From an uncultured Methanobrevibacter sp. (GTDB lineage: Archaea; Methanobacteriota; Methanobacteria; Methanobacteriales; Methanobacteriaceae), in contig OMVY01000001.1 in the NCBI GenBank assembly GCA_900314635.1, positions 62,001 to 126,000 on the forward strand: a DNA stretch of 64,000 bases, written 5' to 3'. Position 1 is the first letter of the stretch, and the number at the start of each line of letters is the position of its first letter. Position numbers and translations under genes: made by a program. The notes under the pieces are model-generated. The model saw only the letters and a program-made list of their open reading frames with translations, was not told the origin of the DNA and did no database searches. Shown in pieces: positions 5,022 to 24,325 of this stretch.

Positions 5022-5109
5022 GTCTTTGGTTTAATAATTATGTAAATATGATTATCTCGTCTTTAATTGGTAATCAAGTAGTTGACTTAATAAATGTTCA
5101 AGTGATTTA

Positions 5110-6087
5110 ATGAAAGTTTCTGTAGTGACTCCAAATTATAATGGCTTGAAGTTCCTTAAAGCCTATTTTGACAGCCTGGCTCTTCAAGCGGAATTTATAG
5201 AGGAAATCGTTATTGTGGATAACGGATCTGAGGATGGAAGCGTTGAATTCATAGAATCCTTGAATGAAAATTATCCGGTTGATATAAAGCTCATAAAAAA
5301 TAAGGAAAACCTCGGATTCGCTCCTGCAGTCAATCAGGGTATTCGAGCATCAAAATCCGAGTATGTCTACTCATTGAACAATGATGTTGAGCTTGAGAAA
5401 GATACAGTTGAAATGATAGTCCGGGATATGGATGATTCAATTGCAATGGGTGAGAATCCATTTTCATTCTCTTCAAAAATGATTCAATTCAACAATCGCA
5501 ACTTGATTGATGATGCTGGAGACGAGTACACAATTCTTGGATGGACTCGAAAGGCAGGCGACGGCAAGCCCCTTGGGAAATATGGTGAAAAGAGGGAGAT
5601 ATTTTCAAGTTGTGGCGGCGCGGCTCTCTACAGGCGCTCCGTACTTGATGAGATAGGAATGTTTGATGATAATTTCTTCGCCTATCTTGAAGACATAGAT
5701 TTAAGCTACAGAGCCCAGATTAATGGTTATAAGAACTTTTTCTCCCCTCGCTCAATTGTTTATCACAAGGGAAGCGGAACAAGCGGAAGCAGATATAATG
5801 AGTTCAAGGTAAGAATTTCTGCAAGAAACAATCTCTGGCTTGCTTATAAGAACCTGGTTCTTCCTCAAAAGATTTTGAATTTCATCTTTCTCTTTATTGG
5901 CTTTTTCATAAAATATGTCTTCTTTTTAAGAAAGGGATTCGGCCATGTTTACCTTGATGGGCTTAAGGAAGGCTTTAAAACAAGAAAGAAATTGGACAGG
6001 GTTGAGTTCAAGAGGGCTAATTGGAAAAACTACTTTAAAATCGAGTGGAAATTAATAAAGAATACTATAAATTACTTGAGGATATAG
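5110..6087 (+). CDS. family 2 glycosyltransferase
   Basis: A 325-residue GT-A glycosyltransferase that would add a sugar to a lipid-linked glycan at the inner membrane face. It starts VSVVTPNYNG, has the VDNGSEDGS nucleotide-binding segment near residue 45 and a DxD-like NNDVE near 95, then the acceptor-side FAYLEDIDLSYR motif typical of rhamnosyltransferase-like GT2 proteins. A hydrophobic segment around 255-275 suggests membrane anchoring. The start is supported by CAAGTGATTTA before the ATG. Position directly after the rhamnose genes makes it a candidate rhamnosyltransferase, which is inference. Confidence 0.85.
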   Translation: MKVSVVTPNYNGLKFLKAYFDSLALQAEFIEEIVIVDNGSEDGSVEFIESLNENYPVDIKLIKNKENLGFAPAVNQGIRASKSEYVYSLNNDVELEKDTVEMIVRDMDDSIAMGENPFSFSSKMIQFNNRNLIDDAGDEYTILGWTRKAGDGKPLGKYGEKREIFSSCGGAALYRRSVLDEIGMFDDNFFAYLEDIDLSYRAQINGYKNFFSPRSIVYHKGSGTSGSRYNEFKVRISARNNLWLAYKNLVLPQKILNFIFLFIGFFIKYVFFLRKGFGHVYLDGLKEGFKTRKKLDRVEFKRANWKNYFKIEWKLIKNTINYLRI

Positions 6088-6180
6088 GAAACTAGGGAAT
6101 TATTTAAAATTGATTTTTTTAATAATTGGAATAAGGAATATAATTAAAATTTTTAAAATATGGATTTAACGGGGAATAAA

Positions 6181-7080
6181 ATGACTAATATAAGTTTATC
6201 AATTATTATTGTGAATTACAACACCTTCAAGCTTACAAGAGATACAATAAACTCCTGCATCTCAGAGCCTACCCGTTATACTTATGAAATATTCCTTGTT
6301 GACAATAAATCCACTGATGACAGCTTATTTCAGCTAAAGAAGTATTTTGAAAGTGAAATAAGTCGCGGATTAATCAAAGTAATCGAAAATGATGAAAACA
6401 AGGGTTTTGCAAATGCCAATAATCTAGCTATTGAAAAAGCTTCAGGAGATTTCATCCTGCTTTTGAATTCAGACACCCTCGTTGAACAGAACACCATCGA
6501 CAAGTGCATGGATTATATGACTAGAGCAGTGAATGCGGATGTCGGCGCTTTGGGATGCAAGGTCTCCCTTGCGGATGGAAGCCTTGACAAGGCATGCAAG
6601 AGAAGTTTTCCAAATCCTGCAAACTCTTTTTATAAACTGTTCAATATCAATACAGGTTCATCAAAAGCGGATTACAATATCACCGGCCTGGATGACAATG
6701 GAGTTTATGAAATCGACTGCCTGACAGGCGCTTTCATGCTGGTTAGAAAAACCACGATAGAGGATATCGGCCTTCTTGATGACACATTTTTCATGTACGG
6801 CGAGGATATAGACTGGTGCTACAGGATAAAGAAGGCCGGATGGAAGATAATCTACTTCGGCGAAGCGGGAATTGTCCATTATAAAGGGGCAAGCAGCGAG
6901 GATAAAAAGACAAAAAGGCGGAATCCCAAGTTGGTTTATGAATTCTACAGGGCCATGTATGTCTTTTATAGAAAACATTACACTAAAAAGTATAACTTCT
7001 TGCTGAATATTGCCGTTTATATCGGCATTTTTGTCTTGCTGGTCAAGAATTTAATATCTAATGAGTTGAAGCGGTTTTAA
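6181..7080 (+). CDS. family 2 glycosyltransferase
   Basis: A second GT2 enzyme, distantly similar to its upstream neighbour: SIIIVNYNTF at the N terminus, VDNKSTDDS, a DxD-like LLNSDTLVE, and FFMYGEDIDWCYRIK near residue 215. A C-terminal hydrophobic stretch (about 275-292) can anchor it to the membrane. An in-frame ATG at 6160 exists, but GGGGAATAAA lies just before ATG 6181, giving 299 residues and the usual family start. Specificity is unknown; the neighbourhood points to surface glycan assembly. Confidence 0.85.
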   Translation: MTNISLSIIIVNYNTFKLTRDTINSCISEPTRYTYEIFLVDNKSTDDSLFQLKKYFESEISRGLIKVIENDENKGFANANNLAIEKASGDFILLLNSDTLVEQNTIDKCMDYMTRAVNADVGALGCKVSLADGSLDKACKRSFPNPANSFYKLFNINTGSSKADYNITGLDDNGVYEIDCLTGAFMLVRKTTIEDIGLLDDTFFMYGEDIDWCYRIKKAGWKIIYFGEAGIVHYKGASSEDKKTKRRNPKLVYEFYRAMYVFYRKHYTKKYNFLLNIAVYIGIFVLLVKNLISNELKRF

Positions 7081-7165
7081 TCTTTTTGGTAATTTACTAG
7101 CTATTGAGTTGAGGCGGTTTTATCTTTTTGGTAATTTATTAGATAAATGAGCGGCTTTTAGTTTT
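7063..7165 (+). repeat. 43-bp tandem duplication of a gene 3' end
   Basis: The end of the second glycosyltransferase gene with its stop (7063-7105) is repeated at 7106-7147 with a few substitutions, followed by a shorter third copy at 7149-7165. The copies are adjacent, with a period of 43 bp. Confidence 0.85.
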
Positions 7166-7193
7166 TAATTAATTTTATGAGTCTGGTGAAATA

Positions 7194-8296
7194 ATGGTTG
7201 AGAAAAATGAAAGGATTCTATGGTTGGATATTGCAAGAGCTATTGCAATCATACTTGTAGTCTGCGGCCATTGTGACAATTTCACTACCTGGAGCATTCA
7301 AAGCTTTTCAGGTCTGTTTTTCATGCCTCTTTTCATTTTCATCAGCGGTTATCTCTTCAAAGACAGGGTCATAGACTCTTTCTCTGATTTGACAGCATTC
7401 TTGAAAAGAAGGGTAGTTCCGATTTACAAATACTATCTTACTTATGACTGGTGTTCTACTTTTTAAAGAACTTCTTCTTCCAAATAGGTTTTTACAGCTC
7501 CTCAGTGCTATATGGCGACAAGATAATTCATCCTGTAAGCTCCCTAGGCACAGTTGCCACAGATGTTATAAAAATAATATTGTGCATGGGAAGGGAGCCT
7601 TTCTGTGGTGCGTTCTGGTTTTTCATAGCTTTAATATTCGTAACAATAGCCTATGCTTTCATAAGATTCATTGGAAGGAAATTGAATAATATCATCGATG
7701 AAAACATAACAGTCAATGCAGGGGTTCTTTTATGCTTCATTCTAGGCTGCATCATGAGGTATACAGTCAATATTCCTAGATTTTCACCTTCATTGACTCT
7801 CATACTGTTCTACCATCTGGGAAACATTTATTTTGTAAACAGGGACAGGATTCGCTTTGACAATGGATTGGTCTGTATGTTATCATTCCTCCTCTTGCTG
7901 ATTCTAAACAGCTATGGATATGTTTCAATGAACCAAAACATGTTTACAGATCCGATTTTCCTGATTGTCTCATCATTTTTAGGAATTTACATGGTATTCT
8001 ACATATCCAAGGTTCTTGATGGAAGATTAGACAAGGCAAGGGATGTGCTGGTTTATATCGGTCAGAACACTCTGCCTATAATCGCATTCCACCTCTTCTG
8101 TTTCAAATTCGTGATGCTGGCTCAGCTATTTACAGGATATATCAGCTTCGATCAGCTGGCTATTTTAAATGGTGCAAACAATAACAATCTATGGTACATA
8201 GCATATGTTTTATGCGGCGTTTTCGGTCCTCTGGCCATATACTGGCTTATAAGCAATTCCAAGGATAAAATCAGGCATTTGTTGGGAACCAGTTAA
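7194..8296 (+). pseudogene. acyltransferase family 3 membrane protein, frameshifted
   Basis: Two overlapping frames together make one acyltransferase_3 protein of about 365 residues. The first part (7194-7466) carries the family start ILWLDIARAIAIILVVCGH with the catalytic-type histidine and ends at TAA in frame after LTYDW. The second part, in the +2 frame, continues from about 7450 with FYFLKNFFFQIGFY through eight or so membrane helices to 8296. A single-base shift between about 7440 and 7455 rejoins them. Such enzymes O-acylate surface sugars, fitting the locus. It could be a real inactivating mutation, phase variation, or a sequencing error; there is no long homopolymer at the break. Confidence 0.8.
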
Positions 8297-8333
8297 TTCA
8301 ATAAATCAAGCATTTGTTGGGAACCAGTTAATT
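8271..8333 (+). repeat. 28-bp direct repeat of the acyltransferase 3' end
   Basis: Bases 8271-8298, covering the last codons and stop, recur at 8306-8333 with one difference, offset 35 bp. Confidence 0.9.
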
Positions 8334-8597
8334 AAATTGTTTCCAAATTATTTTTTTATCATTTACATTTGTTTTTAATAACTGTTCATTCATTTCTTTT
8401 TTTAAAATGGCACTATAAATTCAACGTTTTGAAAAATTCTTCACACTTCAAATTGATTATTATATAAATATTTAAATCATATTAAAAACATAATAATATT
8501 ATAATAATTTTTAGTTGCAATTATTTGGCGGAATTTTTTCATGATTCATTAAAAAATTATTTAAATAAGTGAATTTCTAAAAGAGGGAGCGGTACGA
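8297..8597. other. intergenic, promoter of sugar transferase gene
   Basis: After the repeated gene tail this 301-bp stretch is AT-rich. ATATAAATATTTAAATCA near 8462-8479 is a plausible TATA region for the gene at 8598, whose ribosome binding site is AGAGGGAGCGG. No small gene or structured RNA is apparent. Confidence 0.4.
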
Positions 8598-10001
8598 ATG
8601 ATTAAGGAAAATCAAAGATTTTTAAATGGGGTATTGGTTTTAATTGATACCTTGGTTATCCTTTTTTCCCTGTTTCTTGCCTATCATATAAGATTTAAAA
8701 CCACTATGTTCGGCCCTATTGGGGGAACTCTTCCTCTGTGGAATTATGCATTGTTCACTCTATTCGCCGTTCTGCCTACTTACTTGTTGCTTTATTATTT
8801 CTTTGGCCTCTACAAGCCATTTAGAAACCAGTCTTCTATTTTTTCCGGAACTACAAAAATCATCCGATCCTCGGTTGTGGCTTTTGTCGTGCTTGTTGCG
8901 GTCTTGTTTGTCATAGACCAGCCTAACTTCTCAAGAATCATGCTGATGCTTTTAAGCATATTCGTCATAGTTTTTGCAAGTCTGGAAAGGGCTGCTGTAA
9001 TATTTGCGCTTAGAATGCTGCGTTCAACCAATCACAACCTGAAGCATATCCTCATCATAGGGGACAATGAGCTGGCATTCACATTCGCCCGCAAAATCAA
9101 GTCAAAAACCTATCTGGGATATAATGTCGCAGGATTTTTAGGAAGAAAGGAGCATCTGGGCAAATATTTCGAAGGCAGCAGGTTCATTGGAACCTTCCTT
9201 GATCTGGAAAAGGTTTTGGAAGAGAAGAAATTCGACAGAGTCGTAATAGCCATTCCTCTTAAGTACTATTATCACTTGAATGAAATAGTGGACACATGCG
9301 AGAATGCTGGAATCAAGGCGGAGATCATTCCCGATTATTACAAGTACATTCCTGCAAAGCCTTCAGTGGAGCTCTTGGATGATCTGCCAATCATCAATAT
9401 CCGTTATGTTCCTTTGGATGATGCATTCAACGGTTTCATCAAGACATTATCCGATATTGTAATTTCCCTAATAGCCATTGTCATAACATCACCGATTATG
9501 ATTTTAACTGCGATAGCTATTAAGCTGGAGTCTCCAGGCCCTATCATATTCAAGCAGGAAAGGATAGGATACAATGGCAAGCCATTCATGATGTACAAGT
9601 TCAGAAGCATGCGTGTTCAAGACGAGGATGAGGAGAAGTCCCAATGGACCACAAAGGATGATCCTAGAAAGACCAGAGTGGGGGAATTCATCAGAAAGCA
9701 CAGCATTGACGAGCTGCCCCAATTCTTCAATGTTTTAAAGAGGGACATGAGCGTTGTCGGACCTCGTCCGGAACGTCCTTACTTTGTAGAGGAATTTAGA
9801 AAGGAGATTCCTAAATACATGGTCAAGCACCAGGTCAAGCCGGGTCTTACAGGACTTGCCCAGGTAAACGGCTACAGGGGAAACACATCCATTAAAAAAC
9901 GTATCGAGTATGACATTCAATATGTAGAAAACTGGACTTTCAGCCTGGATATAAAAATCATGTTCCAGACAGCATTCGGCAGAGGAGCTAATGCTTACTG
10001 A
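8598..10001 (+). CDS. polyprenyl-phosphate sugar-1-phosphate transferase (WbaP/WcaJ type)
   Basis: Initiates glycan assembly by moving a sugar-1-phosphate from a nucleotide sugar to the membrane lipid carrier, dolichyl phosphate in archaea. The 467-residue protein has four N-terminal membrane helices (about 10-125), a central Rossmann-like CoA-binding-type domain (HILIIGDN near 150), a fifth helix or re-entrant hairpin near 280-300, and a C-terminal Bac_transf domain with ESPGPIIFKQERIG, KFRSM and VVGPRPERP. All hallmark motifs are intact. It closes the polysaccharide locus and has its own promoter region. Which sugar is transferred is not evident. Confidence 0.9.
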   Translation: MIKENQRFLNGVLVLIDTLVILFSLFLAYHIRFKTTMFGPIGGTLPLWNYALFTLFAVLPTYLLLYYFFGLYKPFRNQSSIFSGTTKIIRSSVVAFVVLVAVLFVIDQPNFSRIMLMLLSIFVIVFASLERAAVIFALRMLRSTNHNLKHILIIGDNELAFTFARKIKSKTYLGYNVAGFLGRKEHLGKYFEGSRFIGTFLDLEKVLEEKKFDRVVIAIPLKYYYHLNEIVDTCENAGIKAEIIPDYYKYIPAKPSVELLDDLPIINIRYVPLDDAFNGFIKTLSDIVISLIAIVITSPIMILTAIAIKLESPGPIIFKQERIGYNGKPFMMYKFRSMRVQDEDEEKSQWTTKDDPRKTRVGEFIRKHSIDELPQFFNVLKRDMSVVGPRPERPYFVEEFRKEIPKYMVKHQVKPGLTGLAQVNGYRGNTSIKKRIEYDIQYVENWTFSLDIKIMFQTAFGRGANAY

Positions 10002-10372
10002 TATTTTAAAATACTTTTCTTAAGAGTATCTTATATTAATCGGTTTATTATGAAGAAATTTTTTTCAAAATCCAGTCTCATGCTTAATTTTATAAAGTAG
10101 GAATTTAATATTTTTATTACGTAACAATTTTTGATTAATTTAATTTTTTTAATTTTAGTTTTTCATAAATTTAAAAATTAAATTAATTGATTTAAAATGA
10201 TTATTTTCTAATTTAAAGCGTTTTAGATAGTTTTTTAAAATTTTGAATTTCTTTTAAAAATGTCACTATTTTAAAATCCAGTTTCAAAAACAAATTAAAA
10301 ATTCAGTTTCAATACAAATTAAATTTATTGTATTCAATAAAAAATCATAAATTACTATAAAAGGGGTTAAAT
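10002..10372. other. AT-rich intergenic with short tandem repeat
   Basis: 371 bp without a gene. Two degenerate copies of CAGTTTCAAAAACAAATTAA lie at about 10279-10325. The long RPA gene follows, with AAAGGGGTT as ribosome binding site. I see no RNA gene. Confidence 0.4.
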
Positions 10373-13300
10373 ATGGAAAGAGAAGATTTTAACGGAATGA
10401 ATTTAAATGAGGATATAAGCGATGAGGATTTCAACAAAATAGTTGGAATCTATGAGCAGATAAAGGATAAGATTTCAAAGGAAGAATTTATTTCAGTTTT
10501 TAATGAAAACAAGGAACTAAATAAGGATTTTTCATTTTATACAGATTTATACTGTGCAAAGAGAATTTTAGACAATTTAGGACCTGCGGAAAACGAAATT
10601 CTTGATGAAGTTTCTGGAAATGTTCTTAAAATAAGCGATGTTGAAGTTGGAAACGAGAATTTCGATATTGTCGCACGTGTCATGTCCATTTCCAACTCAA
10701 GGGCTTTCGTATCCGGAAAGGGCAGGGATGGAAAGCTTTGCAATATTGAGGTTGCAGATAATACCGGCCGTGTCAGAGTTGTTCTCTGGACTCAAAACGT
10801 CAAGCATGTAAAGTTTATCAGCGAAGGAGACATTGTAAGAATAGGAGATATCGAGTGCAGGGAAGGCTATCAAGGCGGAAAGGAATTCACACTCAATCCA
10901 AGGTCTTCAATTAAAAGGCTTGAGGAAGGAAGCCGTGATTATCCTAATGATATTGACTCATATCCAGACTATTTTGAAGAGTTTACAGCTATTTCCGAGC
11001 TCAGGCCAAATGAACAGGCAAACATAAGAGGAAGGCTTATAAGATATCCTAGCCCTCATAAGTTCAACAGCAACGGCAGAGAGGGAAGGGTTGTATCACT
11101 TGAAATTCAGGATGAAAGCGGAAAGATAGCTTATACAATCTGGAATCCTGTTCCTGATGATTTGGATATTGAAGTTGGAGATGTCGTCAAAGTCATCAAT
11201 GAAGAGCCTAGGGAGAGAAACGGCGAGATTTCATTTTCAAGTTTCTCAGGCAGAATAGTCAGGGATGACAGCGGATATGAGGTTCCTGAATTTACAGACA
11301 GGATTTATAAAATTCAGGAAGCTATTGATGGCGAAATCAAGGATGTAACCTTGTTTGGTAAGGTCACAAAGGTTCAATCCCCTAACGAATTTGTAAGAAG
11401 CGACGATTCAAAAGGCTTTGTTCGCTCCATTGAATTATCCGATGAAACAGCTTCAATCAGGGTAACTCTCTGGAATAATGATGCAAAATCCGATATCAAC
11501 AAGGGCGACTTTGTCAAAATCAGCGGAGGAGATGTTGAACTGGATGATTTCTCTCCAAGCGGATATAGGGTTAACACAGGATTCAACAGTGAGCTTGAAA
11601 TCAATCCTGATGGATACGATGAGCTTGTAGCTCAAATCAACGATTCCCTGGAAAACAAGGAAATTGAATTCTACAGGATAAGCGCTGCTCAGGATGATGA
11701 GATAAAAGGAGTCAACCTCTTTGCGATTGTCACCAAGGCTCCTAATGCTAGTGAATTTACAAGACGTGACGGCAAGAAGGGCTATGTCCGCTCCATTGAA
11801 ATCTCAGATGCCACAGGATCAATCAGAGCCACTCTCTGGGGCGATGATGCCAAGTTGAAAATCGAAAAGGGAGATATTCTCAAGATTCTTGATGGAAATG
11901 TGGAGGAGGATGAGTATTCTCCAAGTGGATACAGGGTTAACACCAATCGCGACAGTGAAATCGAAATCAATCCTGAAGGCTATGAGGATTACTCCAATCA
12001 ATTGAGGAATGAAATAGATGTATCAAATTACTCAATTCAAAAAATAGCTGATGCACAGGAAGAGCTTCAATCCAGCGTCAATTTCATAGGAATTGTAACA
12101 AAATCACCTAAAGTGAATGAATTTGAAAGGTCTGACGGCAAGAAGGGCTATGTCCGCTCCATAGATTTAACTGATGATACAGCTACAATCAGAGTAACAC
12201 TCTGGGGCGATGATGCCAAGTTGAAAATCGAAAAGGGAGACATCCTTAAGATTCTTGATGGCAGTTTGGAGGAGGATGAATACTCTCCAAGCGGATACAG
12301 GGTAAACACAGGCCGCGACTGCGAGCTTGAAGTAAATCCTGACATCGATGATGATTATGTTCAAACATTGGAAAACGAGGCCAGATTCCTGGAAAAGCCT
12401 GTAAAGAAAATAGGAGACATTGACAGCGAGGAAATGGATGTCACATTGCTTGGAATAGTCACAAAGGTCTCCGACCCTATTGAATTTGCAAGAAACAACA
12501 ATGAAAACGACAAGGGTATTTTCAAAACTATCGAGCTTGCCGATGGCACAGGTTCCATCAGAGTCACTCTCTGGGGCGATGACGCCAAGGAAAACATAGG
12601 AAAGGGAACAATACTCAAGCTTGCAGGCGTAAACATAAGGGACGACGATTATGCGGATTCCGGATACAGTGCAAACACCAATTTCAATACAGAGTTCAGT
12701 TCTGAAACCGAAGGCATCGATGACGAGCTTTTATCTACTTTGACACGCATTGAAAGCCAATTAAATCCTATTGATATTGGAGATTTGGAAGATTCCGATG
12801 ATGAAGGCGATGAAGTGGATATCATTGGAAGATTGATTACCTTGTCATCCATTCGCGAATTTGAAAGGGATGACGGCAACAAGGGCCATGTATGTTCCGG
12901 AGACTTCGCTGACGGCACAGGAAAAATCAGGGTCTCATTCTGGAATGAAAAGTCCAAATATCCATTTGAAATAGGCAGGGCATACAAGATTGAAAATGCC
13001 AGAATCAGACTTGGAATGTATGAAGTAGAACTCAATGCCGGCAGATCCGCTAGAATTATTGAAGCGGATGAAGTGGAGGAGGCCGCACTTCCAAGCTTTG
13101 AAGAATTGGAAAATTCACTTTACGAGCTTAAAAACATCGAAGAGCTGGATGAGGATGACAGAAGTTTCAAGGTTGTAGGCAGAATCCTCAGCCTTAACGA
13201 AATTCGCGAATTTCAAAGAAGCGATGGTTCCAAAGGTCTTGTAAGAGGCATGGAAATAGGAGACAATACTGGAATCATCAGAGTAAGCTTATGGGATGAC

Positions 13301-13918
13301 ACAGCAAGAACTCCTTGCGATGTGGGAGATCCTATTAAGATTAAAAATCCTTCTGTCAGATTCAATGACAATCAAATAGAATTAAGTGTAGGAGCAGCGG
13401 CTACTGTTGATGATCCAACTCAGGATGAAATCGATTCCCTTCCAAGCTACAAGGAATTGGAAGACAGAGCATATCAATTGAAGGAAATAGAGGAACTCAA
13501 TGAGTTCGATACCAACATCAGAGTGAAAGGAATCTTCACTGATATTTATGGTGGCAGGCTCTTGACTCCTAGATGTCCTCACTGCAACAACACTCTGGAG
13601 GAGGATGAAGAGGAATGTTCCTACTGCGGAAATGAGGTAGACGAGCCTAATTATCTACTCATGCTTCCAGGAAAGATCCAGGATGATACCGGCGAGGTTT
13701 CAGTCACTTTCTTCAATAATCTGGCTGAAGAGCTGTTGGAGATGAAAACAGACGACATAGTTTCCCTTTATGAAACCGAAGGTGACCTTGGTGCTATGGA
13801 AGGCAGGGTGGAAAACCTTGAAGGATTGACTTTGGATGTCCTTGCCGATGTTCGTTACAGTGATTATGATGAGAGCCTCAGACTTAATCCGAGAAGAATA
13901 TTCTCCAAGGAGTTATAG
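10373..13918 (+). CDS. giant RPA-type ssDNA-binding protein with about nine OB folds
   Basis: A replication protein A homologue of 1181 residues, about twice the usual archaeal length, expected to coat single-stranded DNA in replication and repair. A helical N-terminal domain (1-80) is followed by OB folds at roughly 86-185, 207-305, 316-430, 437-555, 557-675, 679-795, 801-910, 921-1020 and 1039-1165; the last carries a zinc finger with C1068, C1071, C1082 and C1085. Repeats share the VRVTLW and GDxVKI signatures. OB4 and OB5 are nearly identical even in DNA, at a 366-bp (122-codon) offset, so recently duplicated. A shorter paralogue lies at 15404-17860 and radA follows. The fold count is mine by eye. 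Assignment to RPA is firm; whether this or the paralogue is the main replication factor is unknown. Confidence 0.88.
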   Translation: MEREDFNGMNLNEDISDEDFNKIVGIYEQIKDKISKEEFISVFNENKELNKDFSFYTDLYCAKRILDNLGPAENEILDEVSGNVLKISDVEVGNENFDIVARVMSISNSRAFVSGKGRDGKLCNIEVADNTGRVRVVLWTQNVKHVKFISEGDIVRIGDIECREGYQGGKEFTLNPRSSIKRLEEGSRDYPNDIDSYPDYFEEFTAISELRPNEQANIRGRLIRYPSPHKFNSNGREGRVVSLEIQDESGKIAYTIWNPVPDDLDIEVGDVVKVINEEPRERNGEISFSSFSGRIVRDDSGYEVPEFTDRIYKIQEAIDGEIKDVTLFGKVTKVQSPNEFVRSDDSKGFVRSIELSDETASIRVTLWNNDAKSDINKGDFVKISGGDVELDDFSPSGYRVNTGFNSELEINPDGYDELVAQINDSLENKEIEFYRISAAQDDEIKGVNLFAIVTKAPNASEFTRRDGKKGYVRSIEISDATGSIRATLWGDDAKLKIEKGDILKILDGNVEEDEYSPSGYRVNTNRDSEIEINPEGYEDYSNQLRNEIDVSNYSIQKIADAQEELQSSVNFIGIVTKSPKVNEFERSDGKKGYVRSIDLTDDTATIRVTLWGDDAKLKIEKGDILKILDGSLEEDEYSPSGYRVNTGRDCELEVNPDIDDDYVQTLENEARFLEKPVKKIGDIDSEEMDVTLLGIVTKVSDPIEFARNNNENDKGIFKTIELADGTGSIRVTLWGDDAKENIGKGTILKLAGVNIRDDDYADSGYSANTNFNTEFSSETEGIDDELLSTLTRIESQLNPIDIGDLEDSDDEGDEVDIIGRLITLSSIREFERDDGNKGHVCSGDFADGTGKIRVSFWNEKSKYPFEIGRAYKIENARIRLGMYEVELNAGRSARIIEADEVEEAALPSFEELENSLYELKNIEELDEDDRSFKVVGRILSLNEIREFQRSDGSKGLVRGMEIGDNTGIIRVSLWDDTARTPCDVGDPIKIKNPSVRFNDNQIELSVGAAATVDDPTQDEIDSLPSYKELEDRAYQLKEIEELNEFDTNIRVKGIFTDIYGGRLLTPRCPHCNNTLEEDEEECSYCGNEVDEPNYLLMLPGKIQDDTGEVSVTFFNNLAEELLEMKTDDIVSLYETEGDLGAMEGRVENLEGLTLDVLADVRYSDYDESLRLNPRRIFSKEL
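11681..12412 (+). repeat. 366-bp in-frame tandem duplication encoding OB4 and OB5
   Basis: Two adjacent 122-codon units. Long identical DNA runs occur at exactly 366-bp offset: 11771-11796 against 12137-12162 (GGCAAGAAGGGCTATGTCCG...) and from 11835 against 12201 (TCTGGGGCGATGATGCCAAG...). The neighbouring OB3 and OB6 are clearly more diverged copies. Confidence 0.85.
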
Positions 13919-14189
13919 CTGTTAAATTTTTTTAAAATCATGATTTCCATTTTGAAGTCATGATTTCTTTAACTATTTTTTTAATAATTTTTAATTAGCT
14001 ATTTTAAATTGATTTTTAAGTTTTTTTATTGGCTTGTTTTTTAATTGATTATTAGGTTTTTATTTTTTAGTTATCTTGTTTTTTTAATGATGATTAAGTT
14101 TTAATTTGAATAATTATTATCATTTTTTTTAAGAAAATTATAAATACTATAAATTAAAATTATTATTATCAAATTTAGGAGGTAGAATC

Positions 14190-14546
14190 ATGAAAGGCAG
14201 CAGTGTGATAATTGCAATTCTAGTTATTGTAGTGATAGCTCTCTGTGTATTGCTAGCTGGCAGTTTTATGGTCATTCAAAATGATGATGGCGGGGCTGCT
14301 GAACTAACTCAAAAAGTTTCAGACAAGGTTTCCCAAAGCGTTGATGAAAGTTCCTCATCCGGATCTAAAATAGTAGACGGCCTTGAGAAGGTGTCCAACG
14401 GCCAGGCTGGCGATGGAAGCTATATTTATGAGGAAACTTCAAGTGATGGAAACGTCCGTCAATATGATGAAAACGGCAAGTTGATCGGTTCAACTTATGA
14501 AGAGGACCAGGCACAACTTGGAAATCCAAATGGAGAATTAGAATAG
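14190..14546 (+). CDS. small membrane-anchored extracytoplasmic protein, unknown
   Basis: I do not recognise a family. The 118-residue product has one strong N-terminal membrane segment (about 6-27) after a short basic start, then a hydrophilic, Ser/Gly/Asp-rich tail exposed outside. Near residues 87-103 a YIYEETSSDGNVRQYDENGK stretch looks like one YD/RHS-like or MORN-like beta-hairpin. GGAGGTAGAATC before the ATG is the strongest ribosome binding site in the region, and TATAAATACTATAAA upstream suggests its own promoter. It lies between the two RPA paralogues, but nothing in it suggests a DNA role. Confidence 0.7.
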   Translation: MKGSSVIIAILVIVVIALCVLLAGSFMVIQNDDGGAAELTQKVSDKVSQSVDESSSSGSKIVDGLEKVSNGQAGDGSYIYEETSSDGNVRQYDENGKLIGSTYEEDQAQLGNPNGELE

Positions 14547-14559
14547 CTTTTTAGCTATT
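14542..14559 (+). terminator. hairpin terminator overlapping the stop codon
   Basis: AATAGCT, four T, AGCTATT forms a perfect 7-bp stem that includes the TAG stop of the 118-residue gene and runs into TTTTATTTTC. Confidence 0.6.
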
Positions 14560-15403
14560 TTTTATTTTCAATTTTTTCATATTGAAATTTTATTTTTATT
14601 TTTAAAACTATTTTTTATTAAAAACTATTTTTATTCATTAAATTATTATTTTAATATTATTTTGCAATTTTATTTTCATTGTTTTAAACTTGTAATTTTT
14701 TATTAATTTGAAATTTTTTTCAAAGGCTTAAAAATTATTTATTTTAATAAAATATTCTTAATTTATCTTTATTTTATTATTTGATAACTATATTTACTTT
14801 AATTTATTAAATTAGTTTTTAAATCAAATATTTTAACTAAAAAAACAATAAATTTAAATATTATCGTGTATAATTTACAAATACAGATTGAATTAAGAAA
14901 TCAAGATTTTTAATAAATTTTTTTTCTTAATATATTGTAAATTAAATTGAAAAATATAAATTTGATTGCTCATATGCCGATTAAAAAATTAAAATTCAAG
15001 GCTTTATGATCGATTAAATGAATTTAATTGCAATATGCATTTGGATTAATAGATGATTTCAATTCATTTGACAATAATTTATTTCAAATGATTTTATTGT
15101 TCTTTGCTTTTACACTTGAAATTGTACTTATTACTTTTCAAATGCTCTGTCTTAATCATTATATATAAACAAATTTAAACTATAACTACGTATTAAAATT
15201 AGAAATTATTCAATTTTTAAATTAATTAAAATATGGTTACGTTAATTAAAATTATTAAAAATTCGAATATGCGCATTAGATAATCATCGCCCATAAGTTA
15301 AAAATTATTAATATTAAAGCTGTGGCCGAATTATCTAATTAAGTTATTGAAAGCTTCTGATTGAATTACTAAATTTATAGTTTAATTAAACCGAGGGTTT
15401 GGT
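14547..15403. other. long AT-rich intergenic region upstream of the second RPA gene
   Basis: 857 bp without a convincing gene on either strand. TTATATATAAAC near 15159-15170 is a good TATA box candidate and would give a 5' leader of roughly 210 nt. In that leader TTAGATAAT near 15277 and ATTATCTAA near 15333 form a 9-bp inverted repeat enclosing the only G/C-containing patches (CATCGCCCATAAG, CTGTGGCCG). The gene starts after ACCGAGGGTTTGGT. Confidence 0.4.
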
Positions 15404-17860
15404 ATGAATAAAGAATTTTTCAAAGGAATGAATTTAGCTCAGGATATTAGTGAAGATGATTTCAACCTCATTGTTGAAGAATTCAAAAAGGTTGAAGACA
15501 TAATATCTAAAGATCAGTTTATAAAGGAGTTTAATGAACGCAAGTCTTATTATGAAGATAGCTCTTTAATAAGTGATAATTCCATAGTCTCAATGATTGT
15601 TGGGCCTTTGTCCCCGGAGGAGAATGAAGCTCTCTCTGAAATCACCGAGGAATCCTTGATAAAAATCAATGATGCTGAAGATGGCAATCACGGCTTCAAT
15701 GTCATTGCCCGTGTGATGACCATTTCCAATCCAAAGGAATTCACATCAAGCAAGGGAAAACCAGGAAAGCTATGCAATATTGATATTGCAGACGATACTG
15801 GTGAAGTAAGACTTACATTATGGTCACAAAACATTAAACATCTTAAAAACGTGAAGGAAGGAGATATTGTAAAATTCACTGATGTCGATTGCAGAATCAA
15901 TTCATATAATAGAAAGAAGGAATTTTCACTGCGTCCACGATCAACCATGAATGTTTTGGATGAAGAGAGCAGCATTTATCCTGAAAACATCAGTGATTTC
16001 CCAGTATATGAAGAGAAAATCACACCTATCAGCGAAATTTCTCATGAAGGAAACATCAGCATTCTCGGAAGACTGATCAAGGTTCCAAAGCCACGCAGTT
16101 ATGACAGCAACGGCAAAAATGGAAAAGTTCTCTCACTTGAAATCCTGGACAAGACAGGCAAGATACAATATACCTTGTGGAATAATGATGTATATATTGT
16201 CAGCGCTCTTGATTTGAAGGAAGGAGATATAGTCAAGATTTTAAATGAGCAGGTAAGAGAACGTGATGGTGAATTCTCTATTTCCCACTGGTCAGGCAGG
16301 ATATTAAAGGTCGAAGGAGATTATGATATTCCAGAATATTCCTCTCAAATCATAAAGATCGGTGATGCTCACGAGCAGAAGGACGTCATTGTTCATGGTA
16401 TTGTAACAAAAGTTTCCGATACTGTGGAATTCATTTCCAGCAATGGCGAGCCTGGATTTGTAAAGACAATTGAAATTGGTGATGGAACAGGCACAATCAG
16501 GGTAACCCTCTGGAGAGACGACACTAAGATGAACATCTCCAAAGGAGATATGCTCAAAGTCATTGGCGGAAATGTGGAGTATGATGATTTCTCCCGTGCC
16601 TACAGGGTAAATACCAATTGGAACAGCGAGTTTAAAATAAATGCTGCTGATGATTTGGAAATCAAGGAATCTCTGGAGGAAAAATATCACTCCCGTCTTG
16701 TTCCTATTGAGATTTCAAAGATTCAGGAATTTGATGAGGAAGACGGCGTGGAAGTAGACATCCTGGCAAGATTGATAGATATTTATAATGGAAGCACTTT
16801 CATAAGAGACGATGGAACAGAGGGAATGCGCCGAAGCGGTATTTTTGCAGATGCTTCAAAAGGCATAGTAAGAGTCACATTCTGGGATGACAAGGCGGAA
16901 TTTCCTTTCGCTGTCGGAAGGGCTTATAAAATAGAAAATGCAAAAACCAGGCTGAATAATACAGTTGAACTCAATGTCAACAAATCCGCAAGAGTCATGG
17001 AGATTCCAGAGCTTCAAGTGGAAAATCTCCCTCCATTGGATGTATTGGAAGACCTGATTTATGAAACCCGTCCGATTGGTGATTTGGATGAGGATGATAC
17101 TAACATTAAGATCATTGGAAGAATAATGGATGTTCAAGACATTCATGAATTCACCAGGGATGATGGTTCAGTCGGCGTCGTTAGAAGCATAGATATTGGT
17201 GATAAGACTGGAATCATCAGAGCAAGCTTGTGGGATTCCAAAGCTGACATGCTGATAGAAGTTGGAGATCCTATCAAAGTTCAGAATCCTAGAATAAGGT
17301 ATGACAATGGATTGAAGCTGAACATCGGAAGCAGCTCCAATATTCTTGAGCCAAGCATTAAGGAATTAAATGAGATTCCTTCCACTGAAGAGCTTGAATC
17401 AATTTTATTCACAGCCAAGGACATAGGAATGCTTGAAGAGGAAGAGCCTAATGTAAAGGTTCATGGAACATTGAAAAATATCTACACTGATAAAATCCTA
17501 ATTTACAAATGTCCATTCTGTGATAATACAATAGATAAGGATGACAAGGAGTGTGTTGTCTGCAATAATGAAATCGTAGAGCCTAAATACACTTTAATCC
17601 TCTCTGGAGTGCTTGAAGACGAGACCGATGAAATCGAAGTCGCATTTTTCAATAATCTTGCCGAAGAGATTATTGGAATTAAAAAAGAGGATATTATCAA
17701 AATCATTAATGAAAGCAATGATGAGAATATTTTAATGGATGACTTGAACAAACTTAATGGAATGGCATTGACACTTTTAGCTGATGTCATTTATGATGAG
17801 ATAGGAGACAGGAATCAGTTGAGGCCGAGAAAAATTATCTCTAAAGACAAGTATGATTAA
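15404..17860 (+). CDS. RPA-type ssDNA-binding protein with about six OB folds
   Basis: Paralogue of the 1181-residue RPA upstream, 818 residues. It shares the helical N terminus (FFKGMNLAQDISEDDFN against DFNGMNLNEDISDEDFN) and the order of folds: OB1 about 86-190, OB2 208-305, OB3 316-420, OB4 433-540, OB5 556-655, and OB6 673-805 with a zinc finger at C703, C706, C717 and C720. Relative to the long paralogue it has one central fold where that has four, so the length difference is due to expansion or loss of one repeat class. It probably binds ssDNA alone or with its paralogue. The gene sits 190 bp before radA. Confidence 0.87.
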   Translation: MNKEFFKGMNLAQDISEDDFNLIVEEFKKVEDIISKDQFIKEFNERKSYYEDSSLISDNSIVSMIVGPLSPEENEALSEITEESLIKINDAEDGNHGFNVIARVMTISNPKEFTSSKGKPGKLCNIDIADDTGEVRLTLWSQNIKHLKNVKEGDIVKFTDVDCRINSYNRKKEFSLRPRSTMNVLDEESSIYPENISDFPVYEEKITPISEISHEGNISILGRLIKVPKPRSYDSNGKNGKVLSLEILDKTGKIQYTLWNNDVYIVSALDLKEGDIVKILNEQVRERDGEFSISHWSGRILKVEGDYDIPEYSSQIIKIGDAHEQKDVIVHGIVTKVSDTVEFISSNGEPGFVKTIEIGDGTGTIRVTLWRDDTKMNISKGDMLKVIGGNVEYDDFSRAYRVNTNWNSEFKINAADDLEIKESLEEKYHSRLVPIEISKIQEFDEEDGVEVDILARLIDIYNGSTFIRDDGTEGMRRSGIFADASKGIVRVTFWDDKAEFPFAVGRAYKIENAKTRLNNTVELNVNKSARVMEIPELQVENLPPLDVLEDLIYETRPIGDLDEDDTNIKIIGRIMDVQDIHEFTRDDGSVGVVRSIDIGDKTGIIRASLWDSKADMLIEVGDPIKVQNPRIRYDNGLKLNIGSSSNILEPSIKELNEIPSTEELESILFTAKDIGMLEEEEPNVKVHGTLKNIYTDKILIYKCPFCDNTIDKDDKECVVCNNEIVEPKYTLILSGVLEDETDEIEVAFFNNLAEEIIGIKKEDIIKIINESNDENILMDDLNKLNGMALTLLADVIYDEIGDRNQLRPRKIISKDKYD

Positions 17861-18059
17861 TGCTTTAGGAGTATTAAAAGCTGTTGAACTAAATAAATTT
17901 TATATAAAAAAGGTTTAAAATTTTTCAAATCTTTTTATTCTAATAGGGATTTGGAATTATTTTAAATCTTTAAATTTAATGAAAATTATAAATATCATAT
18001 GTTTATAATTAAAAACAAGGTTACTGAAATTTAAAAAACTAAACAATGGATTGATTATA

Positions 18060-18992
18060 ATGGAACTTCAAGACTTACCTAATGTTGGAGAAAAAACTGC
18101 AGAAAAATTACGAGATGCTGGATTTGCTGATATGATGAGACTTGCTACCGCCACCCCTAAGGAATTGGCTGTAAAAGCTGAAATCGGTGAAGGTGTAGCT
18201 GAGAAAGTTATTGAAGCTGCAAGAAAAGCTGAAAAAATCGATTTCGAAACAGCATTCGATGTGATGGAAAGAAGACGGGATGTCGGCCATATCACTACTG
18301 GAAGCAAAGGCGTTGATGAGCTTATTGGTGGTGGAATCGAAACACAATCAATGACTGAGGTTTTCGGTGAATTCGGTTCCGGTAAAAGTCAGATTTCTCA
18401 TGAACTAGCTGTTACAGTTCAACTTCCTCCAGAACAAGGCGGATTAGATGGTGACTGTGTATTTATCGATACTGAAAACACATTCAGACCAGAGAGAATT
18501 GAACAGATTGCAGCTCATTTCGGCCTTGATCACGAAGAAACCTTGCAGAGAATTCACATTGCAAGGGCATTCAACTCATCTCACCAAATCTTGATGGCTG
18601 AAAAGATCAATGAGCTTATTCAAAGCGGAGTAAATGTCAAACTCGTTATTGTGGACTCTCTCATGGCTCACTTCAGAGCTGAATATGTGGGAAGGGAATC
18701 CTTGGCTACCAGACAGCAAAAATTAAACCAGCACTTGCATGCATTGCAGCAAATTGCAAATACTTACAATGTTGCTATCTTTATTACAAACCAGGTTCAA
18801 GCAAGACCTGATGCTTTCTTCGGTAGTCCAACCAAGGCTGTCGGAGGTCACGTGCTTGGACACGCTTCAACCTACAGAATCTGGCTCAAGAAGGGTCTCG
18901 CAGGAAAGAGAATTGCAAGACTCGTGGACAGCCCACACCTGCCTGAAGGAGAAGCAGTATTCAAAGTAACTACCGACGGTATTGTAGACTAG
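18060..18992 (+). CDS. radA: DNA repair and recombination protein RadA
   Basis: Archaeal RecA/Rad51-family recombinase that forms filaments on ssDNA and carries out strand exchange. In 310 residues it has the helix-hairpin-helix N-terminal domain ([12 protein letters not shown]), Walker A GEFGSGKS at 103-110, Walker B VIVDS near 196-200, and loop segments for DNA contact; length and motifs are those of normal intein-free RadA. TTG at 18051 would add three residues, but ATG 18060 is the family start. The adjacent ssDNA-binding proteins are its natural partners, since RPA must be displaced for filament formation. Confidence 0.96.
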
Positions 18993-19016
18993 TTATGCAT
19001 TCTACTTCGGACAAAA

Positions 19017-19043
19017 TAAAAAGTTTTTTTTTAAAACTTTTTA
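19017..19043 (+). terminator. radA terminator hairpin
   Basis: TAAAAAGTTTT pairs perfectly with AAAACTTTTTA across a five-T loop, starting 25 bp after the radA stop, followed by TCACTCTTTTTTTATTTT. Confidence 0.65.
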
Positions 19044-19207
19044 TCACTCTTTTTTTATTTTATTATCTTTAAGCAGAATTTCATTTTTCAAAATTTATAT
19101 CAATTTATAAAAACTTTTTTTCGATAAAATATTTTAATCAGATTATCCAATATACTAATATTTAAAAAATTAACTATTTTTTCAAATTTATTTTATTGGT
19201 CGATTTC

Positions 19208-20113
19208 ATGGATTTCAGGATAATCATAGTTTCAATCATTGTCATGATTCTTATAGGCTTTTTTTCAAAAAAAGTCAATCTCATATCATCAGATGATGTC
19301 GAAACTCTTAATAATATAGTAGTTAATATAGCTCTTCCATGCATGATTTTCCAAGCTTTGTATGTTGCTAGGACTTCCTTGTTTGCAAGTTTAAGCATAT
19401 TGACACTTTACATGTTGATATGCAGTTTAATAGTGGGGATAATCACTTATTTGATACTTAAAATTGCAGGCTGGGACAGCAGGAAAATATGGACGATAGT
19501 TGTTTGTGTAGTTCTTGGAAACACAGGGTTTTTAGGATATCCAGTTACAAGTGGCATTTTTGGTGCTGAGGGCATGATCAGGGCCGTATTCTGTGACATA
19601 TCAACATCAATACTATTCATATCCTTAAGCGTAATCCTGATAATCCTCTTTGAAGGAGATATTCGCCAGGCATTAAGGAAAATATTGATTTTTCCTCCAT
19701 TATGGGCAATAATTCTAGGATTGCTGTTCAATATTTTTTCTATTCCAATCACTACTGTTGGAGAGACGGTTGTTGATTATCTAGCTGGTGCCACAGTTCC
19801 TCTTATTATGATTTCACTGGGTTTGTCCTTAAATATTGAAGGCCTTAAGAATCATCTTCTAGAGGTTTCATTTGCTTCATTAATGAAATTGATTGTCTTC
19901 CCTATAATAGGACTTGCAGTCATGGCTCTTCTTGGTATTACCGGGCTGAATCACACTATCGGACTTATTGAGGCGGCTATGTCTTCTGCCATGTTGTGTC
20001 TGGTATTGGCCATTAATCATAAACTGGATATAGATCTGACTTCAGACTGCCTCTTTACAAGCACATTGTTTGCTTTAGTGACTATTCCGGTTTTCCTCAT
20101 GTTTATTGTTTAG
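19208..20113 (+). CDS. AEC family transporter (auxin efflux carrier type)
   Basis: A 301-residue integral membrane protein with about ten helices in two five-helix halves. Features of the AEC/malate-permease family are KKVNLISSDDVETLNNIVVN near residue 25, NTGFLGYPV near 113, and the LAGATVPLIMISLGLSL segment in the second half. Likely a secondary carrier for an organic anion. TTG at 19196 would extend the frame by four residues, but GGTCGATTTC-ATG matches the local start pattern at 19208. It stands alone between radA and hdrA. Confidence 0.82.
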   Translation: MDFRIIIVSIIVMILIGFFSKKVNLISSDDVETLNNIVVNIALPCMIFQALYVARTSLFASLSILTLYMLICSLIVGIITYLILKIAGWDSRKIWTIVVCVVLGNTGFLGYPVTSGIFGAEGMIRAVFCDISTSILFISLSVILIILFEGDIRQALRKILIFPPLWAIILGLLFNIFSIPITTVGETVVDYLAGATVPLIMISLGLSLNIEGLKNHLLEVSFASLMKLIVFPIIGLAVMALLGITGLNHTIGLIEAAMSSAMLCLVLAINHKLDIDLTSDCLFTSTLFALVTIPVFLMFIV

Positions 20114-20714
20114 CTTGCTAATTGCATAGAGTCATATTTTTTCTTAATTTTTTGTCTTTCATTTTTAAAGAAAACATTTTTAATTTCAAGTGGTGCTAAA
20201 AAGGTTACACTTTTTTGTTTATCATTATTCACTTTTCATTTTTTTATTCAAAATTTTATTTTAATTAAAATGTTTATTTTTCTTTAATACTCTTGATTAG
20301 ATATTATTTTTTAAATTTAAAGAATTTTTTTATAAAATCTATTTTTTTAAAGCCTTGTTAAACTCTTTTTTTAATTATTGATTTTTATTTTAATTTTTTT
20401 TAGGTTAACAAAAATAAAAATTTGATGCTTTTCAAACGATTTCTTATTTTTTAATTTAAAGCTCTATATTTATATAATATTTGAAAATACAGTTTTTAAA
20501 ATATTTATTTTAATAATAAACTATAATTATCATAAATAACCAAATTTTACTAATTCTTATCAAATTTTTATTTTATGATATATATACTTTACTCCTACCT
20601 CTTAATAGAAACATTTATATGCTCTTATTCCAAACATAACATTATCTAATTTTATATATATAAAAAAAAAATTAGATCAAATGATTAATCATTTTACTTG
20701 TACAAGGTGATTTA
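20114..20714. other. 600-bp AT-rich region upstream of hdrA
   Basis: No gene is visible. Several TATA-like boxes precede hdrA: TTTATATATATAAAAA at about 20651-20666, ACATTTATATGCTC near 20609 and ATGATATATATACTT near 20575. A strong, perhaps multiple, promoter is expected for this highly expressed gene. AGGTGATTTA lies directly before the ATG. Confidence 0.45.
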
Positions 20715-22697
20715 ATGGCAGAAGAAAACATGAATGAAGAAGTAAGAGTGGGAGTATTTGTCTGCCACTGTGGTGTAAACGTTGGAGGAGTCGTAGACTG
20801 CCCTGAAGTAGCAGAATACGCAAAAACCTTACCAAACGTTGAATTTGCGACCGATTACAAATATATGTGTTCCGACCCTGGTCAAGGTATGATCCAAGAC
20901 GCAATTAAAGAACACAACTTAAACAGAGTAGTTGTAGCTGCTTGTTCTCCAAGACTTCACGAACCTACATTCCGTAGATGTGTAGAAGAAGCTGGATTAA
21001 ACAAGTTCTTATTTGAATTTGCTAACTTAAGAGAACAAGACTCCTGGGTACACATGACCATGCCTGAAGAAGCTACTGCAAAAGCAAAAGACTTAACCCG
21101 TATGGCTGTCGCAAAAGCAAGATTACTCGAACCTTTAGAAGCATCTAAAGTAGCAGTAGAGAAGAAATGTCTCGTTATCGGTGGTGGAGTAACCGGTATC
21201 CAATCTGCATTAGACTTAGGTGACATGGGATTCGAAACCTACTTAGTAGAAAGAAACCCAACCGTCGGAGGAAGAATGGGTCAATTAGATAAAACCTTCC
21301 CTACCCTCGACTGTTCCATGTGTATTCTTGCACCAAAAATGGTAGACTGTTCCAAACACGAAAACATTAACTTACTCACTTACTCTGAAGTAAAAGAAGT
21401 TGACGGTTACATCGGTAACTTCGACGTAACTGTTGAAAGAAAAGCAAGATACGTTATTGAAGACGACTGTACTGGATGCGGACAATGTCAAGAAATTTGT
21501 CCTATTGAAATCCCTAACTACTACGACGAAGGTGTCGGAATGGTAAAAGCTATTTACATCCCATTCCCTCAAGCTGTACCTCTTGTAGCTACTATTGATA
21601 AAGACTACTGTATTGACTGCGGTCTTTGTGAAACCGTATGTGGTCCTGATGCAATCGACAGAAACCAAGAACCTGAAGAAATCGTTCTCAGAGTCGGTAC
21701 TATTATTGCAGCAACCGGTTACGACCCATATGACCCTACCGCAAAATACGAATACGGATACGGCAGATACAGCAACGTAATTACCGGTCTTGAAATCGAA
21801 AGATTAATCAACGCATCCGGTCCTACCGCTGGTCACGTAGTAAGACCTTCCGATGGTGCAACTCCTAAACGTGTAGCATTCATCCACTGTGTCGGTTCAA
21901 GAGACGAACAAATCGGTAAAGCATACTGTTCCAGAGTATGTTGTATGTACTCCATGAAGAACGCTCAATTATGTATTGACCACGAACCTGACACTGAAGT
22001 AACCTGTTACTACATGGATATCCGTTCCTTCGGTAAAGGATACGAAGAGTTCTACAAAAACTCACAAGAAAAATACGGTATTGAGTTCTTAAGAGGACGT
22101 CCTGCTGAAATTATCGAAAACGAAGACTTAAGCTTAACCATCAGAGCAGAAGATACCTTACTCGGTAAGATCACTGAATACACCTATGATATGGTAGTAT
22201 TATCTGTTGGTTTAGAACCTCCTGCAGGATCCAACGAACTCAGACAAACCCTCGGTTTATCCAGAACCAGTGACGGTTTCTACATGGAAGCTCACCCTAA
22301 GCTCAGACCTGTTGACACCTTAACTGACGGTGTATACATTGCTGGTGTAGCACAAGGTCCTAAGGATATTCCTGACTCCGTAGCACAAGGTTCCGCTGCA
22401 GCATCAAGAGCAGCTATCCCAATGGCTAAAGGAGAAGTAGAAATCGAACCTATTACTGCAAGTACTGATGAAACCGTTTGTGGTGCATGTGAAGTATGTG
22501 TTGAATTATGCCCATTCGGTGCTGTAAGTATTGAAGGTGAAGGCGACGAGAAACACGCTGCTATCAATGTCGCATTATGTAAAGGATGCGGTACTTGTGT
22601 AGGAGCATGTCCTTCCGGTGCTATGAACCAGAACCACTTCAAGACCGAACAAATTATGGCACAAATCAGTGCAGCTCTTGAAGACGTAGCAAAATAA
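20715..22697 (+). CDS. hdrA: CoB-CoM heterodisulfide reductase, subunit A
   Basis: The FAD-binding subunit of the HdrABC-MvhADG electron-bifurcating complex that couples ferredoxin reduction with hydrogen to reduction of the heterodisulfide in the last step of methanogenesis. In 660 residues it shows the N-terminal Cys motif [13 protein letters not shown]-binding [11 protein letters not shown] near 157, ferredoxin motifs [12 protein letters not shown] and [12 protein letters not shown] (about 252-312), and two C-terminal clusters [12 protein letters not shown] and [12 protein letters not shown]. The residue that is selenocysteine in some methanogens is cysteine here. hdrBC are not adjacent. 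Codon use is more biased (AAC, TTC, TAC, GGT, CCT) than in neighbours, as expected for very high expression. Confidence 0.97.
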
Positions 22698-22711
22698 GTA
22701 AACTTTGATTA

Positions 22712-22735
22712 GTTTGAAGGGTTTTCCCTTTAAAC
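22712..22735 (+). terminator. hdrA terminator hairpin 1
   Basis: GTTTGAAGGG-TTTT-CCCTTTAAAC, ten pairs with one G-T wobble, 15 bp after the stop, followed by seven T. Confidence 0.75.
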
Positions 22736-22751
22736 TTTTTTTAAGTTTTCT

Positions 22752-22773
22752 AAAATAGGGTTTTCCCTATTTT
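22752..22773 (+). terminator. hdrA terminator hairpin 2
   Basis: AAAATAGGG-TTTT-CCCTATTTT, a perfect 9-bp stem with the same GGGTTTTCCC apex as hairpin 1, followed by C and twelve T. The two form a tandem terminator. Confidence 0.75.
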
Positions 22774-23056
22774 CTTTTTTTTTTTAATTAAATAATACAT
22801 TTTAACTATTTTTATTCCGATTTTAGATTTTTAATTTTGAATATTTTTCCGATTTTTTTTTAACTATTTTTATTGGTATTTAGATTTTTTATTTTCAATA
22901 TTTTTCAATTTTTTAAAATATTCTTATTTTTCACGTCTAAACAATAACTTTTATTTAACTTGAAAATTATATTTTATATTAATGATAATTTTATGATGCT
23001 AAATCATTATCATAATTAAATTTATAACATTATTTATTTCTTATTAGGTGTGAATT
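22774..23056. other. intergenic with about 60-bp degenerate repeat
   Basis: AACTATTTTTATT followed by GATTTTAGATTTTTAATTTT at about 22804 recurs near 22862 with substitutions. The rest is AT-rich leader of glyA, including AAATTATATTTTATATTAATG near 22965. Confidence 0.4.
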
Positions 23057-24325
23057 ATGGCTCAATATGAAGAAAAAGTAACTAAATTCAATGAACTGAT
23101 GAAAGACCACAATGACTGGATGAGAAACAGCATAAATCTTATCGCAAGTGAAAATGTAACAAGCAGCGCTGTAAAAACTGCAATGGTATCAGATTTATCC
23201 CACAGATATGCAGAAGGCCAGGCTTATGAAAGATTCTATCAGGGATGCACATACATCGATGAAATCGAGGATATTACCAAAAAGCTCTCCTGTGAATTAT
23301 ATGACTGTACTTATGCTAACGTTCAGCCTGTATCAGGTGTAACTGCAAATATGGCAGCTTTCTTCGGCTTCTCCAATATTGGAGACAAGATGATGGCAAT
23401 GAACATTCCTTACGGCGGACATATTTCCCATGCAAAGGTAAGTGCTGCAGGTATTTGTGGATTAACCACTTACGACCATCCATTCGATCCATCAATCATG
23501 AACATCGATATTGATGCAATGAATAAGAAAATCAGAGAACTTGAACCTAAGATTATTCTCTTTGGTGGAAGCTTGTTCTTATTCCCACACCCTATTAAAG
23601 AAGCTGTTGATGCGGCTAATGAAGTGGGAGCCACTATTTTATACGATGCTGCTCACGTGCTTGGTCTCATCGCTGGAAAACAATTCCAGGATCCTTTAAA
23701 GGAAGGAGCTACTGCAATGATGGCAAGTACTCACAAGACCTTCCCGGGACCACAAGGAGGTATCATATTATCTCAGGAAGAAAACAAGGATTTAATTGAT
23801 AATGCTGTTTTCCCAGGTGTAGTAAGTAATCACCACCTGCACCATCTGGCGGGTCTTGGAATAGCTACTGCCGAGATGCTTGAATTCGGTGAGGATTATG
23901 CAAAGCAAACCATTAAAAATGCTCAGGCTTTAGCTGCTGCTCTTGCTGAAGAAGGTTTCAATGTAATGTGCGAGGATTTAGGATACACCAAATCTCACCA
24001 GGTGGCTATGAACACCGTGGATGTTAAAAGGCCTGCAATTCTTGCCAAGGAATTGGAGCTGAACAATGTGATTTTAAACAAGAACCTTATTCCAGGAGAC
24101 ATGCAGGATGACAGTGATGATCCATCCGGTATTAGAATTGGTGTTCAGGAAATCACCAGACGTGGAATGAAGGAAGATGAGATGAAGGATGTTGCTCACT
24201 TCATCAAGAGAGTAGCTTTCGATGATGAGAATATCAAGGAAGAAGTTACTGAATATATGAATGAATACACCAAGATCCACTATGCTTTCAAAGTGGACGA
24301 AGGTTATGAATACATTCAATATTAA
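23057..24325 (+). CDS. glyA: serine hydroxymethyltransferase
   Basis: PLP enzyme interconverting serine and glycine, with tetrahydromethanopterin as the expected one-carbon carrier in methanogens. The 422-residue sequence has the SHMT start with LIASENVTS near residue 28, [17 protein letters not shown], and the PLP lysine in [13 protein letters not shown] near 227. Length matches archaeal GlyA. The start follows TTAGGTGTGAATT. Downstream is a DmrX-like pterin reductase gene on the same strand, consistent with a shared one-carbon theme. Confidence 0.95.

Follow-up and report, generated by a model that had tools for sequence, protein, structure and literature searches.

Can an archaeal RPA be lengthened by the addition of OB folds, and how does it then compare with a neighboring copy that was not? 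The question is raised by a 64,000-nucleotide stretch of Methanobrevibacter DNA (the window; positions below are window coordinates), in which open reading frames (ORFs) define two complete tandem RPA1-type genes, both upstream of radA. The upstream gene, rpa-long (10373..13918, + strand), encodes 1181 amino acids with an AROD-like domain and nine OB folds. The downstream gene, rpa-short (15404..17860, + strand), encodes 818 amino acids with an AROD-like domain and six OB folds. In both cases the assignment was based on a match to the replication factor A model NF009030, on unit boundaries and on AlphaFold2. The counts of nine and six had been proposed in an initial annotation of this DNA and were upheld.

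In rpa-long the AROD-like domain (residues 1-83; 10373..10621) is followed by OB1 (84-203) and OB2 (204-310), which together span 10622..11302. The central array consists of OB3 (311-432; 11303..11668), OB4 (433-552; 11669..12028), OB5 (553-676; 12029..12400) and OB6 (677-798; 12401..12766). It is followed by OB7 (799-918) and OB8 (919-1035), together at 12767..13477, and by OB9 (1036-1181; 13478..13915). OB1-2 and OB7-8 were delimited by unit boundaries and the model; OB3 and OB6 by unit boundaries, the OB tree and the model, with repeat comparison in addition for OB3; OB5 by repeat comparison, tree and model; and OB4 by repeat comparison and tree. In rpa-short an AROD-like domain (1-84) precedes OB1-OB6, and OB3 (16349..16702), identified from unit boundaries and conserved positions, is its single copy of the central class. 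All units lie on the + strand. Three N-terminal helices were predicted in both proteins (residues 17-30, 36-49 and 58-69 in the rpa-long model), with a Foldseek match to the AROD-OB-1 region of 8aa9. The last fold of each protein is DBD-C-like with a match to PF08646 (Rep_fac-A_C), and its zinc-ribbon cysteines, which are invariant in the alignments, are present in both. In OB9 of rpa-long, where the model also supports the assignment, they form a CxxC...CxxC ribbon (C1068/C1071/C1082/C1085). In OB6 of rpa-short (17414..17857) the zinc ligands are kept and nine other conserved residues are lost, as judged by conserved-column comparison. The N-terminal domain, OB1-2 and the last three folds with their zinc finger are common to the two proteins, as the annotation had stated.

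AlphaFold2 models built with alignments of relatives contained nine barrels for rpa-long (mean predicted local distance difference test score (pLDDT) 76.2) and six for rpa-short (mean pLDDT 84.1), in agreement with the fold counts. OB4 of rpa-long was of low confidence (10-residue blocks at about 30-78). Because it was modeled poorly, its assignment rests mainly on protein identities of 53% and 62% to OB3 and OB5, respectively. We infer binding of single-stranded DNA (ssDNA) by both window proteins from homology.

The three extra folds of rpa-long were copied from the central OB class. OB3-OB6 of rpa-long and OB3 of rpa-short share 42-62% protein identity with one another and at most 37% with the other OB folds, so that the class is present four times in one protein and once in the other. 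The earlier proposal of a modular array arisen by duplication of this class is supported. Its offset of 366 bp also holds, the copies being spaced at 366, 366, and 369 bp. By contrast, OB4 and OB5 had been called nearly identical in DNA and are not: their identity is 69.7% over the unit, rising to 78.5% for the core, and the exactly matching runs are 30 and 41 bp long. The same codon is used at 53 of their 74 identical residues (44% expected, P ∼ 1e-6), and because this exceeds chance, OB4 and OB5 are the youngest pair of the array. Codon sharing above random is weak for OB3, and between rpa-long and rpa-short it is near the random expectation in most domains. In the OB tree, OB3, OB4, and OB5 were grouped with OB4 and OB5 as sisters, both at 100/96 support, and OB6 stood apart. 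These sequence relationships indicate that the array grew stepwise and that its copies are not freshly duplicated.

The distribution of the architecture was examined in 152 Methanobacteria genomes (147 with a match, 20 genera). The intact RPA frames listed were of 786-903 aa, and of 809-836 aa in genomes of the same genus; the sole longer frame, of 1185 aa, was that of the window. A few genomes had split or cut RPA genes. Six OB folds were seen in representative alignments of relatives, and a single RPA stood beside radA in the 38 relatives viewed with flanks, the upstream flank being cut in several. A fold number constant across all relatives had been named as evidence against a growing array; the relatives are indeed constant at six, and the window alone has nine. 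Because the nine-OB protein and the tandem pair occur in the window genome only, six OB folds are the old state in Methanobacteria, broken once, in the window lineage. An old origin of the nine-fold form is rejected within the sampled genomes, no other frame exceeding 903 aa.

A seventh OB fold was also considered as the source of the extra length in the 860-903-aa proteins and was rejected, since the addition, where aligned, is a duplicated AROD. The RPA of G042 (L074), one of the longer Methanobrevibacter_A-type proteins, has two N-terminal AROD-like domains and an unchanged OB number in the alignment. For the RPAs of about 860-903 aa in L073, L089, and many others of genus g9, their length suggests the same AROD duplication. 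A 431-aa protein of G016 (L167:3667-4962) carries TPR repeats (PF00515) in place of AROD-OB1-OB2, and then three RPA-type OB folds (PF01336) that lack a zinc ribbon. It appears to be another reshuffled RPA of the genus; similar matches were obtained in G002, G005, and G015, the domains having been checked in G016 only. In another genus of the same order (g19), an RPA frame of just 625 aa (G149:C1:1251789-1253603) covers positions 2-613 of 796 and is apparently split. A search of viral contigs and phages found no relatives, and a plasmid search gave one distant match.

The RPA tree, built on AROD (from residue 20), OB1-2, and OB7-9, placed both window proteins within the genus clade on long single branches of 0.71 and 0.85, compared with a median of 0.12. 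RadA, 91-95% identical to that of the genus, shows about the divergence found in other members, as does the glycosyltransferase, and HdrA is only a little more divergent. Both RPA paralogues are fast-evolving. Conserved residues were lost by rpa-long in OB2 (including H290S and W291F) and by rpa-short in OB4-OB6, the counterparts of OB7-OB9. For columns with a conservation of 90% or more across 36 relatives, those kept by one paralogue only were split, long to short, 4:11 in the N-terminal half and 17:1 in the C-terminal half (P 1.2e-4 by Fisher test; P 0.0018 by block permutation). Sites inside one domain are not independent, and these P values serve as guides. Because the losses fall in complementary places, they suggest subfunctionalization.

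We consider it probable that the locus reflects a lineage-specific RPA duplication followed by fast divergence, stepwise growth of an array to nine folds, and a division of ancestral roles. In the window lineage, a tandem duplication would have affected the main ssDNA-binding protein of replication in Methanobacteria, an RPA1-type chain in which an AROD-like domain and five OB folds are followed by a DBD-C-like OB fold with a zinc ribbon, and both copies would then have diverged fast. The upstream copy would have gained three more central folds by tandem duplications within the gene, one step after another. These would have produced the OB3/OB4/OB5 set, with OB4/OB5 last, and OB6 is perhaps the original central fold. 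Roles would have been divided such that rpa-long kept the C-terminal OB7-OB9 module as its OB2 drifted, and rpa-short kept OB2 as its OB4-OB6 drifted. The long protein would most likely be an RPA that coats ssDNA with a longer reach or a changed mode of binding, either together with the six-fold paralogue or in parallel to it.

Some results weigh against this account. A tree with the four array OBs as one clade was not rejected (approximately unbiased (AU) test, P 0.115). The two window RPAs as sisters did not form the best tree yet were not rejected either (AU P 0.164), and the duplication may have arisen within the window lineage or may predate it, with losses. The contigs of G009 and G011 stop about 300 bp upstream of RPA, and the RPA of G010 is cut at the array position, which leaves some room in these genomes for a second copy or an array. 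G010, the nearest genome by RadA, was considered as an array carrier without support; its C-terminal part is closest to G011 and G009, both of them six-fold. When complementary loss was tested by circular shifts, the result was weak, with 17 of 152 shifts reaching the observed value. Finally, the added folds do not necessarily contribute DNA contacts, and their binding may be weak or their role that of spacers, because family-conserved aromatics near strands 4-5, one or two per fold, are missing from the array OBs. An aromatic that is Tyr or Phe in 35 of 36 relatives is replaced in all four array OBs (L390, E512, E634, and D757) and is retained in rpa-short as Y393; a Trp or Phe of 36/36 relatives is replaced in OB4 and OB5 by R526 and R648. 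Mapped onto the rpa-short model, these positions fall where strand 4 ends and within the hairpin of strand 5, a region that touches ssDNA in other OB folds.

Each array OB, like OB3 of rpa-short, retains 28-29 of 34 family-conserved positions, and on this ground the array OBs look constrained and not decaying. That retention, which includes the TLW tryptophan and equals that of the one central fold in rpa-short, is what a footprint ruler would lead one to expect, in which every added fold extends the ssDNA site of rpa-long and so tunes its occlusion size. Added DNA contacts are possible, but we hold the ruler only tentatively given the lost aromatics and the strongly acidic character of the copies (net charge −8 to −13; about −11 to −12 for the central OBs of relatives). 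The same losses, together with the drift of OB2 in rpa-long, would suit an array that separates OB1-2 from OB7-9 or binds a partner and contributes little DNA binding. OB folds of CST and RPA are also known as protein-interaction modules (PMC10122647), although the many other conserved positions kept in every copy, the TLW tryptophan among them, make this a speculative possibility too.

Relaxed constraint on a duplicated gene, with folds gained to no functional effect, would account for the long branches of both paralogues. It is unlikely in view of the unbroken frames, the conserved positions of the array copies, and losses that are complementary and not confined to one paralogue. That the nine-OB form is unique among about 150 genomes could in principle point to an assembly artefact or frame error; such an origin is extremely improbable, as the DNA identity of the copies (58-70%) is too low for assembly duplication, the frame is single and open, and synteny with relatives is intact. 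Beyond the lineage-specific duplication that we favor, we regard as rather doubtful a more general proposal in which RPA length evolves by repeated intragenic OB duplication after gene duplication, the nine- and six-fold proteins split roles, perhaps in a mixed complex, and OB number sets the ssDNA-binding mode.

The nine-fold RPA is the sole one found among the sampled genomes, in a lineage otherwise at six, and so breaks an architecture that is constant across the 20 genera. The neighboring paralogue, with the ancestral architecture, provides an internal control and makes the locus a natural test of what adding OB folds does. Nine OB folds per chain exceed those of the archaeal RPAs in the cited literature (up to five; PMC10122647, PMC8329085, PMC3984812), in which OB diversity has been attributed to recombination (PMC3984812).

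Pfam and NCBIfam searches identified both window proteins as replication factor A, with several OB matches and a Rep_fac-A_C end. rpa-long scored 1329 bits against NF009030, over the curated cut-off of 1147, and rpa-short scored 937 bits, under it, though aligned over positions 3-794 of 796. The cut-off was passed by 42 of the 152 genomes and is stricter than the family as described here, because many six-OB relatives fall below 1147 bits. We classify rpa-long as a variant of the RPA1-type family NF009030/PRK12366 because it has nine OB folds instead of the constant six.

rpa-short adjoins radA (18060..18992, + strand; TIGR02236), the position of RPA known from relatives, and the radA neighborhood described in the annotation is confirmed. 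The ATG of radA is at 18060, and an alternative TTG start is listed at 18051. radA is the syntenic neighbor of RPA across the whole sampled family, and the gene order of the window, glycosyltransferase-RPA-radA-hdrA, is that of the relatives, which have one RPA there. The two gaps at the RPA genes of the window are 371 and 1485 bp. An ORF of 118 aa (14190-14546), whose N-terminal part includes a hydrophobic segment, lies between the two RPA genes. No counterpart was found at the same place in relatives; a weak match (33%) occurs in L080, upstream of the glycosyltransferase. The gap between glycosyltransferase and RPA in the genus (L053-L070) is AT-rich, of about 0.9-1.5 kb with 13-21% GC, and without a convincing gene; in genus g9 it is about 0.1-0.2 kb. 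An Rfam search of window positions 5000-25000 returned zero RNAs.

Among known systems, the closest likeness is to the six-OB replication factor A of Methanobacteria (NF009030, PRK12366), with which the window proteins share the AROD-like domain, the order of the OBs, the zinc ribbon in the last of them, and the place beside radA. The window differs in the three more central OBs of rpa-long, in the tandem second gene, and in the fast evolution of both. Human CTC1, of the CST complex, is a comparably long OB chain and was matched by Foldseek (8soj). It is a eukaryotic telomere protein whose seven tandem OB folds are fewer than the nine of rpa-long, and orthology is not implied.

In Pyrococcus abyssi, Rpa1 is one subunit of a heterotrimer completed by Rpa2 and Rpa3; it consists of an AROD helical domain and two OB folds, the last of which bears a zinc finger (PMC10122647; PDB 8AAJ, 8AA9). 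The window proteins resemble it in sequence and fold, with an AROD-type domain, then OBs and a zinc finger in the last, but have nine and six OB folds in place of two. A PF01336 search of the genome of the window gave five matches outside the RPA genes; none of the three that were read looked like Rpa2 (wH) or Rpa3, and no dedicated Rpa2/Rpa3 model was run. The Methanocaldococcus jannaschii RPA is a single chain of four plus one OB folds with a zinc-finger DBD-C-like OB (PMC8329085); rpa-long shares the single-chain tandem OBs and the DBD-C-like last OB and differs in having nine folds. Methanosarcina acetivorans has several RPAs with differing OB numbers, a diversity attributed to homologous recombination (PMC3984812). 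The window likewise combines RPAs of unequal OB number in one archaeon, here as a tandem pair of nine and six.
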